Positions 12,565 through 28,607 of a stretch of 64,000 bases of DNA are shown one piece after another. The stretch lies in contig NZ_CP041406.1 in the NCBI RefSeq assembly GCF_014905135.1, positions 1,364,001 to 1,428,000 of the forward strand, given 5' to 3'. The position numbers and the translations under genes are program-made. Below the pieces are notes generated by a model. It saw nothing but the letters and a program-made list of their open reading frames with translations, was not told the origin of the DNA and ran no database searches. Numbering within the stretch: position 1 is the first letter of the stretch; each line of letters opens with the position of its first letter. Source of the stretch: Sulfurimonas paralvinellae. Its GTDB lineage: Bacteria > Campylobacterota > Campylobacteria > Campylobacterales > Sulfurimonadaceae.

Positions 12565-12639
12565 TGGCTCCGGATACTGGATTCGAACCAGTGACCAAGT
12601 GATTAACAGTCACCTACTCTACCGCTGAGCTAATCCGGA
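12565..12639 (-). tRNA. tRNA-Asn (GTT)
   Basis: Read on the minus strand this forms a complete cloverleaf. The acceptor TCCGGAT pairs with ATCCGGA, the anticodon loop carries GTT, and the T arm has GGTTCGAATCC. The discriminator is G and CCA is encoded. It lies about 27 bases beyond the 5S gene and is probably co-transcribed with it. Confidence 0.96.
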
Positions 12640-12666
12640 ATGTAAATACGATTAAATTGATCCGAA

Positions 12667-12783
12667 CTAGGCAGCGACCTACATTCCCACACCTGAAAGA
12701 TGCAGTATTATCAGCGATGAGAGGCTTAGCTTCTGGGTTCGGAATGGGACCAGGCGTTTCCCTCTCTCTATAGCCACCTAGAC
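12667..12783 (-). rRNA. rrf: 5S ribosomal RNA
   Basis: About 117 nt on the minus strand hold the typical 5S core, including CCGAACCCAGAAGCTAAGC-like bases and closing complementary ends (CTAGGTGGC with GTCGCTGCCTAG). It sits downstream of 23S and upstream of tRNA-Asn. The exact ends are estimated from the terminal helix. Confidence 0.95.
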
Positions 12784-12784
12784 A

Positions 12785-12830
12785 AGATCAAGTATAAACT
12801 CATCGTGATTGATGAACTTATATTTGATCT
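12785..12830 (-). promoter_or_regulatory. Long hairpin between 23S and 5S, probable processing stem
   Basis: Arms at 12785-12804 and 12811-12830 are complementary with a few bulges around a 6-base loop, beginning AGATCAA and ending TTGATCT. It lies just before the 5S 5' end. This is the position expected for an RNase III or RNase E processing signal. Function is inferred from location. Confidence 0.5.
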
Positions 12831-13029
12831 TGAAAGATCATATAAGAGTTGAAGTAACTCATTAAAATATCAATTGGTAAAGTCAACATACTAAAGAACT
12901 TCTAAAAGATTCTTCTTATTCATGTATTAGCACAGAAAAAAATTTAGTTTTTTTCTTGCACTCGCCCGTTAGGCATCGTACACTAAATAAGGTAGTGAAG
13001 CAACAGCGTTCGTAAGAACATAAAAAAAG

Positions 13030-15905
<2,876 letters not shown>

Positions 15906-16076
15906 ATTCTATATTGCGTTCACTACCTTATTTAATGTACTATCTCTAATACAACAAACAAGATTGAATGAATCCATTTTTTTGTAGTTATTTAGTTTAT
16001 AATTAAATCTCTTTAATTATATGTTGTTGACTTTAACAATTGTAATTTAATGAACATAAAAAGTTTAATTTTTATA
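15906..16076. other. rRNA spacer between tRNA-Ala and 23S
   Basis: This is an AT-rich internal transcribed spacer. I looked for a tRNA-Ile, which commonly accompanies tRNA-Ala in rRNA spacers, and found none. Only short A/T-rich inverted segments that could form processing stems are visible. Confidence 0.5.
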
Positions 16077-16152
16077 TGGTGGAGAATAGCGGGATCGAAC
16101 CGCTGACCTCCTGCGTGCAAGGCAGGCGCTCTCCCAGCTGAGCTAATTCCCC
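16077..16152 (-). tRNA. tRNA-Ala (TGC)
   Basis: This is a complete minus-strand cloverleaf. The acceptor GGGGAAT pairs with a GGAGAAT-complementary strand, the anticodon is TGC in the loop flanked by GCCT and GCAGG, and the T arm has GTTCGATCC. CCA is encoded. It lies in the spacer between 16S and 23S. Confidence 0.96.
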
Positions 16153-16295
16153 ATAACTGTAAAACTTTTTGTAGTGATTATGTCAAATGAACACAGATCA
16201 CTGAAAACTAAGCAAGCAAGCAGACTGAAGTAACTAATATCTCTGTGAGATTCTTTTGTGTTGAGCCGATCAAACGAATGATCGCTCTTTACTCT

Positions 16296-17815
<1,520 letters not shown>

Positions 17816-18123
17816 ATTGTTTATGAAAAGATAAATAAATTTAATTACTGATCTTTGCCCAAGATTTAAAAATCATTGGCTTTGTTAAGACATTAAGAGT
17901 GCTTAAGCTCTTAATGAATATAGTTATCTATTACTATAGGGAAACTAACTATATCAATAGCTAGAATTCAAATAGAATAGACGGTTGTTGTTTTATTAGT
18001 TATTTCTAAATAAGATTTAACTGATAGTTACATCAGTCTCTCTTACTTGCTTAGTTTTCAATGATCTCAAACGTCTTTAACCTTCCGGTCTTTAAACTTC
18101 AACTCGAAGTCTCTTCGTTTGTG
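17816..18123 (-). other. 16S leader region with perfect 9-bp hairpin
   Basis: This is the leader of the rRNA transcript between the promoter and 16S. A perfect hairpin lies at 17891-17916, with arms CATTAAGAG and CTCTTAATG around an 8-base loop. The remainder is AT-rich and would contain the 16S processing stem and any antitermination boxes, but I cannot identify a boxA with confidence. No gene is seen. Confidence 0.5.
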
Positions 18124-24276: not shown

Positions 24277-25314
24277 CTACCAGACCTTTATCTCATTATA
24301 GATACTGTCACGTTCAACCGGAATAAAGCCGCTGTTTTTGATGAGGGCGGTAAACTCTTCTACATCGACACCGTTGGCACTTTTTGCGCCCGCTGCAGAG
24401 TTTATGGACTCTTTTTCAATCGTACCGTCCAAATCATTCGCACCAAACTCCTGCGCGACAAGAGCGAGATTGACCGTTGAAGTCACCCAGTAGGCTTTAA
24501 TATTTGGTACATTGTCAAGCACTAAGCGAGAAATTGCATAGGTTTTGAGTATCTCATTTGCCGTAATTGCTTTTTCAATTTTCAAATAATTATTTTCCGT
24601 TTGATACACAAGAGGAATAAAAGCATTAAATCCACCTGTAATATTCTGCAGCTCACGTATTCGCATCATATGGTCAATTCTATTCTCACGCGACTCAACA
24701 TGTCCAAAAAGCATTGTAACATTGGACTTTTTCCCGCGTTCATGCCACTTTCTGTGAATCTCAAACCACTGATCTGACGTCACTTTTCCCTTGCAGATAT
24801 AATCACGCACCTTCTCGTCAAATATCTCAGCACCGCCGCCCGGCATGGAGTCTACGCCGTTTTCTACCATAAGGTCAAGCACTTCATCATAGCTAAGCCC
24901 ATGATGGCGTGAAAGAAAATCCACCTCGGCAGCCGTCAAAGCTTTTACATGCAGATCAGGGTATTTCTCTTTTATCTTTTTAAAAATCTCCAAATACCAA
25001 TCGAGTGTAACATTAGGATTATGTGCAGAGACGATATGCACTTCTTTTGCGTTATGCCCGACAATTTCATCAACAATCCTCATAATCTCTTCATGACTCA
25101 TCGTATACTGATTCGGATTTTTACGTGTTGCCGAGTAAGCACAGAATTTACAGACATCTGCACAGACATTTGTAGGATTTATATGGCGATTGATATTAAA
25201 GTAGGTCTTTTTACCGTGAAGTTCCTGACGTTTGGCATCCGCCATTGCACCAAGTTCAAAAAAATCTGCATCATATAGTTTCACTGCATCTTCAAAATTT
25301 ATTCTTTTACTCAT
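24277..25314 (-). CDS. mqnE: Aminofutalosine synthase MqnE (radical SAM)
   Basis: The 345-residue enzyme acts early in the futalosine route to menaquinone. It adds the adenosyl radical of SAM to the chorismate-derived enol ether to give aminofutalosine. The cluster motif CADVCKFCAY (CX3CX2C) is near residue 52, and PGGGAEIF and VTMLFGHVE motifs follow. Futalosine-dependent menaquinone synthesis is normal in Campylobacterota. A GAGAGAAA site precedes the ATG. The 130-base gap upstream holds a large stem-loop element (25355-25431). Confidence 0.92.
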   Translation of the reverse strand: MSKRINFEDAVKLYDADFFELGAMADAKRQELHGKKTYFNINRHINPTNVCADVCKFCAYSATRKNPNQYTMSHEEIMRIVDEIVGHNAKEVHIVSAHNPNVTLDWYLEIFKKIKEKYPDLHVKALTAAEVDFLSRHHGLSYDEVLDLMVENGVDSMPGGGAEIFDEKVRDYICKGKVTSDQWFEIHRKWHERGKKSNVTMLFGHVESRENRIDHMMRIRELQNITGGFNAFIPLVYQTENNYLKIEKAITANEILKTYAISRLVLDNVPNIKAYWVTSTVNLALVAQEFGANDLDGTIEKESINSAAGAKSANGVDVEEFTALIKNSGFIPVERDSIYNEIKVW

Positions 25315-25354
25315 AATTATTTCTCTCTTGTTTATTGTACTCTTGGCTATTATA

Positions 25355-25431
25355 GATTTTTTAGAAAATGTTTTGGAGAGACTCAGACCAAAGGGAGGAT
25401 TTGCTCTCTCTAAAATATTTTATAAAAAATC
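25355..25431 (+). repeat. Stem-loop element A with conserved 23-nt loop
   Basis: Arms at 25355-25381 and 25405-25431 form a 27-bp stem: 24 Watson-Crick pairs, 2 G-U/G-T wobbles and 1 mismatch when read on the + strand. The loop (25382-25404) begins CTCAGACC, then two variable bases, then AGGGAGGATTTG and a final C. The same loop with unrelated stem arms occurs at 27046-27120. The element fills the gap between mqnE and the lsrK-type gene. I do not recognise the family. Confidence 0.8.
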
Positions 25432-25444
25432 GGCCAGCTCCGGA

Positions 25445-27013
25445 TTAAAGTCCTGGAGCTTTCCACATTGAAGTCGTGATATTATCATCAACTAGCTTTA
25501 ATTGCACTTCATATGCTTTTTGCCACTTCTCTTTTAGCCCATCATAAACTTTTTTGTTCTTTGCATTTGGCAAGTAAGTTTTTTCCCAAACAACCAGCTT
25601 CTTAGCCGCATCTTCCAAACTTTCATAGATACCGGCTCCTACACCTGCCGCCATCGCTGCTCCGAGAGCCGTTGCCTCACGCACCTTTGGAATTTTAACA
25701 CTGCATCCTGTCACATCAGCTAATATCTGCGACCACAATGCACCCTTACTTGCTCCGCCTGCAAAAACAAGCTCTTTTATCTTCACACCGCTAAACGCTT
25801 CTATCTTTTCAAGATTTATACTAGAGACAATGGCAGCATTTTCTTCCAGTGCTCGAAACATTGAGATAGTATTGTATTTTTCACTCTCAAGTCCAAGATT
25901 TAAAAAACTCGGAGCTGCGTGATACCATTTGCCATACTTCATAGAGTCAGAAAAAATCGGCAATATTTCATAAGAACCAGCCGGTACAGCTTTCGCTTTT
26001 TCTTCTAAAATTTCATAAACATCACATCCCTGCTCATGTGCTTCTTGCTTTTCAAGTGCACAAAAAGCATCACGAAACCAGCGCATCACAAGACCGCTGA
26101 AAAATGTAATGCCCTCAGCCTGAGAGAGCCCTTCAATGACATGTGGATTGACACGCACACTCATATCTTTGGGTGGTTTAACATCACTTTTGATGTTGAC
26201 TACCTGCTGCCAAAACGAACCGCCAAGCACAGCGACATCACCCTCTTTCACTACACCAAGTCCGGTAGAACCAAGCTGTACATCACCGCCACCCATCACT
26301 ACCTGCGTGAGGCTGCTTAGTCCTGTCGCTTGCGCTGCTTCTTGTGTGACATTGCCAATAACTGTTCCTGTCTCATAAACCGGTACAAAAATATCATCTT
26401 TAATGCCCACTTTTTGCGCCATAGAAATATCCCACTTGCGTGAGGCGAGTGAAAATATTCCGGTCGTTCCGGCATTGCTCGGATCAACGACAATGACACC
26501 AGAGAGTTTTGCCAAGATCCAATCACCAATCATAGAAATATGTGCTACTTTTTCATAGATTTCAGGTCGATTGTTTTTCAACCACAAAAGACGCGGCAAT
26601 GCGCCTAACGCAAAGGTCTGTCCGCTTGTTTCATAAAACTGCTCTTCTATCTCAGGAAACTTCTCTTTAAGATATTTAACTTCTTCAGAAGCTCTAGCGT
26701 CAACATTTGCCACACCCCATAGCTCACGTCCATCTTTATCATAAAGAACAATTCCCTCACGCATGCTTGTTGCACTCAATGCCGCAATATCATCAGGGTC
26801 AATCTCTGCCTTTTTAACTGCGTAAGCAATCACTTCACAGGTAAGTTTCCAATTATTATGAAAATCAAAGCTCATAGAATCCGGTACACCCGCTTCTTCA
26901 AGATGCATCCACTCTTGTTGTGCAACAGCTATCTGATTGCCTTCGGTATCAAAAATCACAGCACGGACAGAGCCCGTTCCTGCATCTATTGCCAGTAAGT
27001 ATTGTTGTTTCAT
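25445..27013 (-). CDS. lsrK: Autoinducer-2 kinase-like FGGY carbohydrate kinase (LsrK family)
   Basis: The protein is about 522 residues from the ATG at 27013 (MKQQYLLAIDAGTGS). A longer frame starts at 27040, but it would place 9 extra residues before the conserved N-terminus. The phosphate motif DAGTGSVRAVIFD, the MREGIVLYD segment, the DPSNAGTTG segment, GGGDVQLG and the C-terminal end TTSMWKAPGL closely match E. coli LsrK, which phosphorylates AI-2 (DPD). No lsr transporter, LsrR or LsrF is adjacent. Instead a class II aldolase and an ABM protein lie upstream in the same operon. The true substrate could be another ketose. Confidence 0.85.
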   Translation of the reverse strand: MKQQYLLAIDAGTGSVRAVIFDTEGNQIAVAQQEWMHLEEAGVPDSMSFDFHNNWKLTCEVIAYAVKKAEIDPDDIAALSATSMREGIVLYDKDGRELWGVANVDARASEEVKYLKEKFPEIEEQFYETSGQTFALGALPRLLWLKNNRPEIYEKVAHISMIGDWILAKLSGVIVVDPSNAGTTGIFSLASRKWDISMAQKVGIKDDIFVPVYETGTVIGNVTQEAAQATGLSSLTQVVMGGGDVQLGSTGLGVVKEGDVAVLGGSFWQQVVNIKSDVKPPKDMSVRVNPHVIEGLSQAEGITFFSGLVMRWFRDAFCALEKQEAHEQGCDVYEILEEKAKAVPAGSYEILPIFSDSMKYGKWYHAAPSFLNLGLESEKYNTISMFRALEENAAIVSSINLEKIEAFSGVKIKELVFAGGASKGALWSQILADVTGCSVKIPKVREATALGAAMAAGVGAGIYESLEDAAKKLVVWEKTYLPNAKNKKVYDGLKEKWQKAYEVQLKLVDDNITTSMWKAPGL

Positions 27014-27045
27014 CTCATATTTCACTTTTGATTTCCACATTTATA

Positions 27046-27120
27046 GCTTTGCAAGAGGTTTATTTTATAGGCTCAGACCGTAGGGAGGATTTGTCCTGTA
27101 AAATGAAGCTCTTGCGAAGC
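27046..27120 (+). repeat. Stem-loop element B with conserved 23-nt loop
   Basis: Arms at 27046-27071 and 27095-27120 form a 26-bp stem with 3 G-U/G-T wobbles and 1 mismatch when read on the + strand. The 23-nt loop (27072-27094) matches that of element A at 20 of 23 positions, beginning CTCAGACC and containing AGGGAGGATTTG. The stem sequence (starting GCTTTGCAAGAG) is unrelated to that of element A. It fills the gap between the class II aldolase and lsrK-type genes. Confidence 0.8.
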
Positions 27121-27141
27121 GGCTTTTTCTTGTAAATCTTT

Positions 27142-28317
27142 TTACTTTTTCAATTTCGCCTGTTCTAGTTCCCAGTACTCCATCGCAAAACTATCTTTCT
27201 CACTTATGCTTTTATAGCCGCCGAGTTTATCTGCCCGAAGTACTGCTAGCATTGTATGTTCAACTATGTCATAAATAATCTTTGCTTCCTCACGCGACTT
27301 TCCAAAACTGACGACGGCCAGATTTTTAATAATCATGTAATTCGGTGCGGGATTGAGCATTACCTCATCAGTGGCGTACTTGTTGAAATACTCTGTATAT
27401 GCTTTAATATATCTCTCAATACCGCCAATAAGATCCGTATCTTCCATAATAAGCGGCACTCTCTTGGTACGAATGATATGCTCCGGTGTCAGTACTCCGC
27501 GTGAGGCAAATTCTCTCAGATTTGGCTGACTTGCATAAAAGGCAGCAAGCGGCGTCTGGTTAATGGCGATATGGACTTCATGACCTTTATATGCACCCAT
27601 TGTATTGACAACACGGCCTATATCACAGTCACTGTGAACATACTTATGCACGATCTCTACAGTTGCATTTTCATCCAAAAACTGCTCTGCTTTTGTGACG
27701 GCATCTATCATTTTTGTATAAGATTTTTTTGCATCGTCATCAAAGGTAAATATTCCATGATTATGCAAGATTATACCCTCTATCTCATCCCAGTTCATAT
27801 TTTTAGTCAGCTCATAGATTTTATGTGCCAATTCAAAGCCTGGCATAACATAATCAACGATCAAAAAGTTTGGAAAAAGCTTGACAATATGCTCATCACC
27901 GTTGATAGTGTTTGAGATGGTCACAATGGCATCGGCATGCGTATGATCTACGAATTTGTACGGAATCAGGGCATGGAGTATCGCTTCTACAGAAGGATTT
28001 GGCGCTGAGGAGTTCATCATCGCCTCTTTTTGACGTGCTACCATCTCAGAATCACTTAATGACTCTTCTTTTGCCATCTCTAAAAGTGCATCCAATCGTA
28101 CCGGTGCAAATCCTTCTGCTTTGATGTCAGCCAGATTCCAGCCGCTCCCTTTCACATGCAGGACATCAATGCCGTCTATATCTCCTTTTACAGAGGTATT
28201 GCCCCCGCCGTGAAGGACAAGTTCATCATTGGAACCTAAAAGGTTGGAAGTATAGACACGCAGGTCCAGATTACTCTTGCACTTTGCCGCTTCACTGTCG
28301 CTGTATAAATTATCCAT
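27142..28317 (-). CDS. Class II aldolase/adducin-family protein
   Basis: The 391-residue protein resembles the aldolase half of the large aldolase/dehydrogenase fusions and sugar-phosphate aldolases. The fold signatures are GGGNTSVK near residue 38, PSVEAILHAL (likely catalytic Glu), the zinc-binding DHTHAD near residue 123, and LHNHGIF near residue 183. It should cleave or epimerise a ketose or aldose phosphate using a divalent metal. It lies 2 bases after the ABM gene and upstream of the LsrK-type kinase, so it probably acts on the phosphorylated product of that kinase. The substrate is unknown. Confidence 0.82.
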   Translation of the reverse strand: MDNLYSDSEAAKCKSNLDLRVYTSNLLGSNDELVLHGGGNTSVKGDIDGIDVLHVKGSGWNLADIKAEGFAPVRLDALLEMAKEESLSDSEMVARQKEAMMNSSAPNPSVEAILHALIPYKFVDHTHADAIVTISNTINGDEHIVKLFPNFLIVDYVMPGFELAHKIYELTKNMNWDEIEGIILHNHGIFTFDDDAKKSYTKMIDAVTKAEQFLDENATVEIVHKYVHSDCDIGRVVNTMGAYKGHEVHIAINQTPLAAFYASQPNLREFASRGVLTPEHIIRTKRVPLIMEDTDLIGGIERYIKAYTEYFNKYATDEVMLNPAPNYMIIKNLAVVSFGKSREEAKIIYDIVEHTMLAVLRADKLGGYKSISEKDSFAMEYWELEQAKLKK

Positions 28318-28319
28318 GC

Positions 28320-28607
28320 CTACCCCAATACTTCTAGTTCATCTGTATATTTTTTCTCACAGTATGGCTCATAGCTCGATTTATAAACTGCATAGTGAGC
28401 AGAAGCTTTATGTCCATCAAGAGTAGCCTCATTTTCCCACGTCTCTACTGCCATAAATTTTCTTCTATTGTTCTCATACTGAAATATCTCGTAAAAAATA
28501 CATCCCTGTTCTGCTTTGCTCGGTTTTACCATAGCTGCAAGCAGCTCTTTCATCTTTGCTTCACATCCCTCTTTTGCAATAAATGTCACTCTTTTTGTGA
28601 TTGTCAT
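28320..28607 (-). CDS. Antibiotic biosynthesis monooxygenase (ABM) fold protein, LsrG/YgiN-like
   Basis: The 95-residue protein has the dimeric ABM ferredoxin-like fold signature: TKRVTFIAKEGCE at the start, then FMAVETWENEATLDGHKASAHYAVY. The HKxSxHY motif resembles LsrG, which isomerises phospho-AI-2, and YgiN. It is the first gene of the leftward operon with the aldolase and the LsrK-type kinase. A role as an isomerase for their intermediate is attractive, but quinol-monooxygenase-like activity is equally possible from sequence alone. Confidence 0.8.
   Translation of the reverse strand: MTITKRVTFIAKEGCEAKMKELLAAMVKPSKAEQGCIFYEIFQYENNRRKFMAVETWENEATLDGHKASAHYAVYKSSYEPYCEKKYTDELEVLG

Follow-up and report, generated by a model that had tools for sequence, protein, structure and literature searches.

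Integron attC sites are recognised as folded single strands, with a structure that is kept while the sequence varies and with constant boxes at the base below a variable tip. The stem-loop origins of circular, Rep-encoding replicons of single-stranded DNA (ssDNA) carry a constant loop on arms that need only be complementary to each other. Here we analyzed two hairpins, elements A and B, in a 64,000-nucleotide stretch of Sulfurimonas paralvinellae (NZ_CP041406.1, positions 1,364,001 to 1,428,000; hereafter the window). Both belong to a family of repeats dispersed through Campylobacterota, with copies located ahead of genes in sulfur-oxidising bacteria and their relatives. What sets this family apart among dispersed bacterial hairpin repeats, and what makes it unusual, is that the constant and the variable parts are reversed. 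According to the sections of two reports drawn on here, template switching creates and maintains hairpins, loop inversion included (PMC8794818), and it homogenises arms and inverts the spacer (PMC8604942). No description of the present family was found in the literature, subscription journals and preprints lying outside the search. A survey of extragenic palindromes (PMC12306157), in the sections used here, names Sulfurimonas gotlandica in a table and gives a default maximum loop of 11 nt, a limit that may overlook loops of the size found in this family.

The initial annotation of the window had placed both hairpins, with their arms and loops, exactly where we find them:

25353..25433, + strand: element A, whole hairpin (covariance-model match, 78.9 bits, E 2.7e-17; fold)
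25355..25381, + strand: 5' arm of element A, partner of 25405-25431 (sequence)
25382..25403, + strand: constant 22-nt core of element A, CTCAGACCAAAGGGAGGATTTG (exact pattern match)
25405..25431, + strand: 3' arm of element A (sequence)
27043..27123, + strand: element B, whole hairpin (covariance-model match, 77.0 bits, E 8e-17; fold)
27046..27071, + strand: 5' arm of element B, partner of 27095-27120 (sequence)
27072..27093, + strand: constant 22-nt core of element B, CTCAGACCGTAGGGAGGATTTG (exact pattern match)
27095..27120, + strand: 3' arm of element B (sequence)

The model that produced these scores was built from 66 family members, A and B among them. In element A a single extra loop base separates the core (25382-25403) from the 3' arm. 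As reported initially, the loops of A and B are identical at 20 of 23 positions, and five of the seven irregular pairs are G·T on the + strand (one G·A and two G·T in A, three T·G and one G·G in B, judged by eye). The predicted RNA fold of the + strand reached -34.6 kcal/mol for A and -41.5 kcal/mol for B (z -5.8 and -6.8, none of 200 shuffles being as good), while the - strand gave -24.1 and -23.4 kcal/mol (z -2.8 and -3.7). With up to three mismatches allowed, the core pattern matched twice in the window compared to 0.00 matches expected.

A check set beforehand, namely whether further copies with covarying arms exist, returned many of them in this genome as well as in its relatives. This genome contains 12 core matches with at most three mismatches, seven of them exact, and 15 matches to the covariance model (E up to 0.01; model from 66 aligned copies). 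In a genus sample of 100 genomes, 33 had at least one covariance-model match, several of these a single weak match only, and 28 had the core pattern with at most two mismatches. A looser core was present in 12 of the 397 genomes of a phylum sample, distributed over four families of bacteria, and in 11 of 397 once genome G359, a chance core match without arms, was set aside; the sequences of loci L133 and L134 have no arms. The highest copy numbers were 33 in one relative (G474) and 19 in another genome. Among public genome contigs the exact pattern was found in at least 120 stretches, and all 80 titles listed among these matches bear Campylobacterota-type names (Sulfurimonas, Sulfurospirillum, Sulfurovum, Campylobacterales and others). 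Rfam 15 contained no family matching the element: at the gathering score the window gave rRNA and tRNA only, and at E up to 1 the eight element loci searched gave one unrelated weak match only. The exact core pattern was absent from IMG/VR.

The constant apex reads CTCAGA-CC-NNN-GG-GAGGATTTG with a core laid out as CTC-AGA-[CC-NNN-GG]-GAG-GATTTG, around which variable arms of ~27 bp pair in a fixed register. Gap-free pairing at no fewer than 23 of 28 positions was seen in 88 of 126 non-redundant copies, and many of the remaining copies have a small internal loop close to the apex. The apical CC/GG was altered in 20 of 199 copies with an AGA-type apex, 16 of which still pair, and the triloop followed the pattern purine-N-A in 156 and A-N-C in 36 of 195 copies. 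Apex loops of the 4-nt GNNA type occurred three times only (GTTA twice, GATA once); such tetraloops fit stable DNA loops, and three cases prove nothing. A second apex class of the CTCGTGAGC type exists as well. The variants CTCGTAAGTCGAGGGATTTG and CTCGTGAGC(C)AAGGGAGGATTTG, which retain the GATTTG bulge and were seen at L171 (genome G010), L236, L245, L246 and L250, may represent either a separate apex class or decay.

The covariation analysis used 66 copies taken from the 126 non-redundant ones, each selected beforehand for pairing at 23 or more of 28 positions. Standard pairs made up 92.7% of the pair cells, compared to 58.9% after shuffling and 45 to 55% in slid registers, while double-change cells numbered 738 compared to 229 in the shuffled set. 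On average the 5' arm of a copy in this pre-filtered set paired with its own 3' arm at 25.6 of 28 positions and with that of another copy at 14.4. The family therefore bears out the claim of a constant loop on variable but complementary arms, and it exhibits the covariation in support of a conserved structure that is expected of a structured RNA family. Covariation does not single out RNA, since a single-stranded DNA site would show the same. The description of the stems as sharing nothing is correct for A compared to B, with a 5' arm identity of 0.375, but does not extend to the family, as the arms of 12 copies compared in this genome had a mean identity of 0.384 compared to 0.332 (standard deviation 0.011) for shuffled arms; likewise, arms that had been called unrelated are highly variable, yet weakly similar within this genome and marked by a consensus in the relative with 33 copies. 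Two further features of the apex were considered and not retained. A CTC/GAG helix inside it is unproven, being invariant by construction in the 66-copy set and broken in model matches L166, L249 and L240, and for a CsrA-type GGA loop the fold that exposes GGA differs from the fold backed by paired apex changes.

The mismatches in the arms carry information on which strand folds. Under equal scoring of G·T and A·C and with no pairing filter, arm positions 10 to 25 of 163 non-redundant copies contained 2334 Watson-Crick pairs. G·T outnumbered A·C by 110 to 24 (p 2e-14), and G·A occurred 32 times compared to eight for C·T. A separate count on 106 in-register copies that also treated G·T and A·C alike gave 101:25, while a pre-filtered set gave 51 G·T to 5 A·C with a filter that itself favoured G·T. 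Sorting by the nearest start codon yielded G·T to A·C ratios of 23:5 for sense copies (37 copies with the start downstream), 72:15 for anti copies (96 copies with the start on the other side) and 15:4 for unassigned ones. Since the G·T excess is equal in both gene orientations, it stems neither from a fold in the neighbouring mRNA nor from a mutation bias tied to transcription, and its cause must therefore be tied to the element's own strand. These counts and the better + strand fold energies of A and B agree with the folding strand proposed initially, and on this comparative evidence we conclude that folding takes place on the element's own (+) strand. The antisense RNA to the operon that had been suggested on the basis of A and B finds no general support, as orientation varies by lineage, the asymmetry is equal in both classes and no clear promoter was found. 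The working form would be single-stranded and folded, with DNA more likely than RNA because the strand bias ignores the direction of transcription and no linked promoter was detected.

The same preference was apparent at orthologous sites, for which 200 elements were grouped by both flanks into 23 site groups and 205 of 220 pairs, which are not independent, were used. Changes from one Watson-Crick pair to another on both sides numbered 1264, next to 380 changes to G·T, 34 to A·C and 350 to other mismatches, and arm identity was 56 to 63% where flank identity was 70 to 90%. The 15 closest pairs (arm identity at least 0.85) differed by 11 G·T, one A·C, 12 other single mismatches, five paired transitions and one pair flip. 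Single copies had opposite orientations at six of 30 orthologous sites (L040/L041, L049/L108, L057/L292, L075/L123, L084/L284 and L233/L244), and five further site groups contained two oppositely oriented copies within one locus.

Closer examination of 32 copies in genome G474 revealed a degenerate arm consensus that weakens with distance from the apex. The 5' arms of these copies had a mean identity of 0.51 (maximum 0.91), compared to 0.31 for the flanks, which is the level expected by chance, and the copies therefore spread by copying. Among relatives with a readable gap, site B was occupied in nine of 21 and site A in four of 17 (by eye), often by quite different arms. Clean comparisons of filled and empty sites were provided by L173 with L185 and by L247 with L076, L100 or L126. 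In the first of these ATGCA is present on both sides of the element and a single ATACA in the empty site (one case), and no conserved ends beyond the feet were detected in the position logo or in the G474 copies. At L041 the pairing reaches into a promoter-like sequence, TATAATTTG, which is also present in L149 and L156, relatives that lack the element; this is an indication that one arm was copied locally from the other. All seven doublets within 260 bp whose sequences were examined (L058, L079, L116, L148, L154, L181 and L207) were arranged head-to-head with the 5' feet facing each other, and in all seven the partners belonged to different apex types (A or C at the third triloop base, CC/GG or GC/GC, AGA or GTGAG type); two cores in G475:C168 would be tail-to-tail, as judged by position alone. 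A direct tandem of two copies 96 bp apart was also observed (L040, L149 and L156, genome G414), the first copy having the same 5' arm and core and a different, unpaired 3' side. In relatives, the gaps corresponding to sites A and B (L165, L170 and L178; G011, G094 and G033) contain different short hairpin repeats, such as those around GGGTTCCGAAA and CGGAATCGGTACTTCAGTGCCGAC, and the gaps of G011 and G094 also harbour a gene for a Y1 (RAYT-like) transposase. With these occupants, the gaps look like hot spots shared by several families of repeats.

Placement was mostly intergenic, with 10 of 130 tabulated copies overlapping a predicted reading frame (gene calls were mechanical), and the median distance from the core to the nearest start codon was 57 nt for 37 sense and 61 nt for 94 anti copies. 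Orientation to the neighbouring gene was 11 anti and one sense in this genome, eight anti and 16 sense in G474, and five anti and seven sense in G475, while most Sulfurimonas copies were anti to the gene with the nearest start. In six genomes whose origin is known from the position of dnaA (near base 400 or 734; for G224 the half-way point was set at 1.1 Mb), operon copies were anti in 30 of 34 cases. A promoter scan beside either foot gave best -10 scores barely above those of shuffles on both strands, and exact TATAAT-like words showed a modest local rise near the elements. Local GC skew as a proxy for the replication strand was dropped, being confounded by gene strand. A regulon was rejected, since the genes next to the copies read in this genome, recognised by name or sequence and partly confirmed by family search, are mixed, and since many relatives have no element at the corresponding site.

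None of the genes compared behaved as a partner of the family. In the genus sample, Y1 transposases were matched in 12 of 33 genomes with the element and in 33 of the 67 without it, with no match in G000, G031, G048, G013 and G054, which contain 15, 19, 12, 11 and 7 copies, respectively, and reverse transcriptases in two of 33 and 21 of 67. Neither distribution tracks the copies, and neither protein is therefore the factor; a hairpin borne by a retroelement was rejected on the same two of 33 genomes.

Taken together, we lean, at somewhat less than an even chance, towards a hairpin of mobile origin that would be recognised through its apex, as a folded single strand and more likely as DNA, by a putative factor. 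This comes close to the earlier suggestion of a hairpin-borne mobile element whose loop is the recognition sequence, although we infer both mobility and recognition. In this view the family would have multiplied as a mobile hairpin that is not autonomous, and its apex, on the extruded single strand, may be read by a protein acting in trans, in the way that hairpins are read by single-strand recombinases and transposases. Resident copies would be under selection for the fold. Template switching in replication probably helps to match the arms and to flip the core, as a contributor only, because alone it gives neither strand bias nor constant apex. That such upkeep is the whole explanation, keeping long inverted repeats matched, extended and flipped while the resident copy has no function, is improbable: it predicts neither the excess of G·T relative to A·C found in either gene orientation nor a constant apex at orthologous sites with 70-90% identical flanks. 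It would account for the six flipped sites, for the L041 complementarity into pre-existing sequence and for G474 arms that pair over up to ~38 bp (by eye), in line with the arm homogenisation and the spacer or loop inversion described in the sections cited (PMC8604942, PMC8794818).

A structured RNA class, with the + strand transcribed, the apex bound by a protein or paired with another RNA and the arms covarying as in a non-coding RNA, is an alternative for which covariation, a constant apex with paired changes, G·T (G-U) intermediates in close orthologs (11 to one A·C in 15 pairs), the RNA fold z-scores of A and B and the location of copies in 5' leaders speak. We nevertheless consider it somewhat less likely, as for 94 of 131 assigned copies transcription from the neighbouring gene would yield the wrong strand, sense and anti classes do not differ in their G·T excess, -10-like scores beside the feet stay near those of shuffles on both strands, Rfam offers no match and the 4-nt apex loops, three being a small number, are not GNRA. 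REP/REPIN elements mobilised by a RAYT (Y1) transposase are very improbable. Dispersed intergenic hairpins and head-to-head doublets are typical of them, and 36 of 136 copies have a TAG that begins between -30 and -27, close to the 5' foot, with GTAG at -30 to -28 in 15 of 136, but arms are not conserved within one genome or between orthologs, and five genomes with seven to 19 copies lack a Y1 match; the initial annotation had likewise set these hairpins apart from REP elements, and arms that differ between copies and orthologs, together with Y1 genes that do not track them, agree with this. Intrinsic transcription terminators with a common loop can practically be dismissed, since the position logo has no T-run after the 3' arm and 31 tabulated copies lie between divergent genes, even though long hairpins soon after stop codons in operons would suit them.

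Several observations weigh against an apex-recognised mobile hairpin. Neither the clustered gene neighbours, which held no recurrent transposase-like family, nor the Y1, reverse transcriptase and neighbour-gene comparisons as a whole yielded a candidate factor, and no clear target-site duplication was found. The looser pattern gave 33 matches in IMG/VR, all of them armless (no more than 12 of 20 positions paired), and one 91-base query found no match among plasmids, so that carriage by phages or plasmids was rejected. In the most distant ortholog class paired transitions made up one third of paired changes, as in unrelated sequence, which implies either many steps or arm replacement in distant pairs, and some arms may have been replaced instead of changed stepwise. 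The constancy of the apex is partly a matter of ascertainment, because copies were located by means of their apex and the model in turn rests on apex-exact copies. Finally, the element strand agreed with the direction of replication in 41 of 51 copies in the six genomes, an agreement tempered by the operons running against replication, in which the element was anti to the gene in three of three. A replication-fork signal was rejected, as coding sequence nearby already shows 76% co-orientation and, in those three head-on operons, the orientation of the element goes with that of the gene.

If apex-recognised mobile hairpins are indeed what the family consists of, they would provide a natural case of a long-kept fold on nearly free sequence, in which the folding strand can be read from the mismatches, and a handle on the use of ssDNA hairpins in bacterial chromosomes outside integrons and REP systems; they would also bear on how far covariation proves an RNA. 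It is possible, if doubtful, that they represent a class of chromosomal single-strand recognition site not described before, in which the bulged apex is the address and the arms, free in sequence, need only fold. Such a site could sit in either orientation, flip, persist through complete arm turnover and form head-to-head pairs that join differing apex types. The orthologous sites, flips and doublets constitute a clean test set for separating selection from template switching.

The genes around the two elements in the window are as follows:

24277..25314, - strand: aminofutalosine synthase gene mqnE, adjoining element A (A is on the opposite strand, upstream of the gene start)
25445..27040, - strand: autoinducer-2 kinase (LsrK) gene, FGGY family, between A and B, with B upstream of its start
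27142..28317, - strand: class II aldolase gene, upstream of the LsrK gene and in the same direction

The identification of the gene between A and B as LsrK-type was confirmed by the NCBIfam autoinducer-2 kinase model (875 bits compared to a cut-off of 528); a second ATG is located at ~27013. The flanking of this one gene by A and B, which had been pointed out initially, has no special meaning, because copies are scattered over the genome. LsrK, class II aldolase and antibiotic-biosynthesis-monooxygenase-fold genes adjoin one another at 25445-28607, next door to mqnE of the futalosine menaquinone pathway, and presumably resemble an Lsr-type autoinducer-2 (AI-2) processing set. An rRNA operon (16S, tRNA, 23S, 5S, tRNA) occupies 12568-17817 on the - strand.

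Compared to the described systems, the family resembles REP/REPIN elements with their RAYT in being short, dispersed and extragenic, in its inverted doublets and perhaps in the TAG/GTAG-like foot of part of the copies, but here the loop is constant, the arms are variable and the copies are not tracked by Y1 transposases. A miniature inverted-repeat transposable element (MITE) of a DDE transposon would have conserved terminal inverted repeats and a target-site duplication; here no conserved ends were found beyond the feet, and an ATGCA flank repeat was seen in one case (L173). With integron attC sites the family would share recognition as a folded single strand, as proposed here, and a structure kept on varying sequence, whereas its constant part is the tip; no cassette arrangement was seen, and no search for integrases was made. 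The stem-loop origins of Rep-encoding replicons have the same constant loop on arms that need only complementarity, while the present copies are dispersed over chromosomes and have no Rep-like gene among their clustered neighbours. Hairpins maintained by template switching, as far as the sections cited describe them (PMC8794818, PMC8604942), are similar in arm homogenisation and loop inversion at orthologous sites, whereas the elements described here combine a 15-base invariant apex with a strand-specific mismatch bias in a dispersed family.
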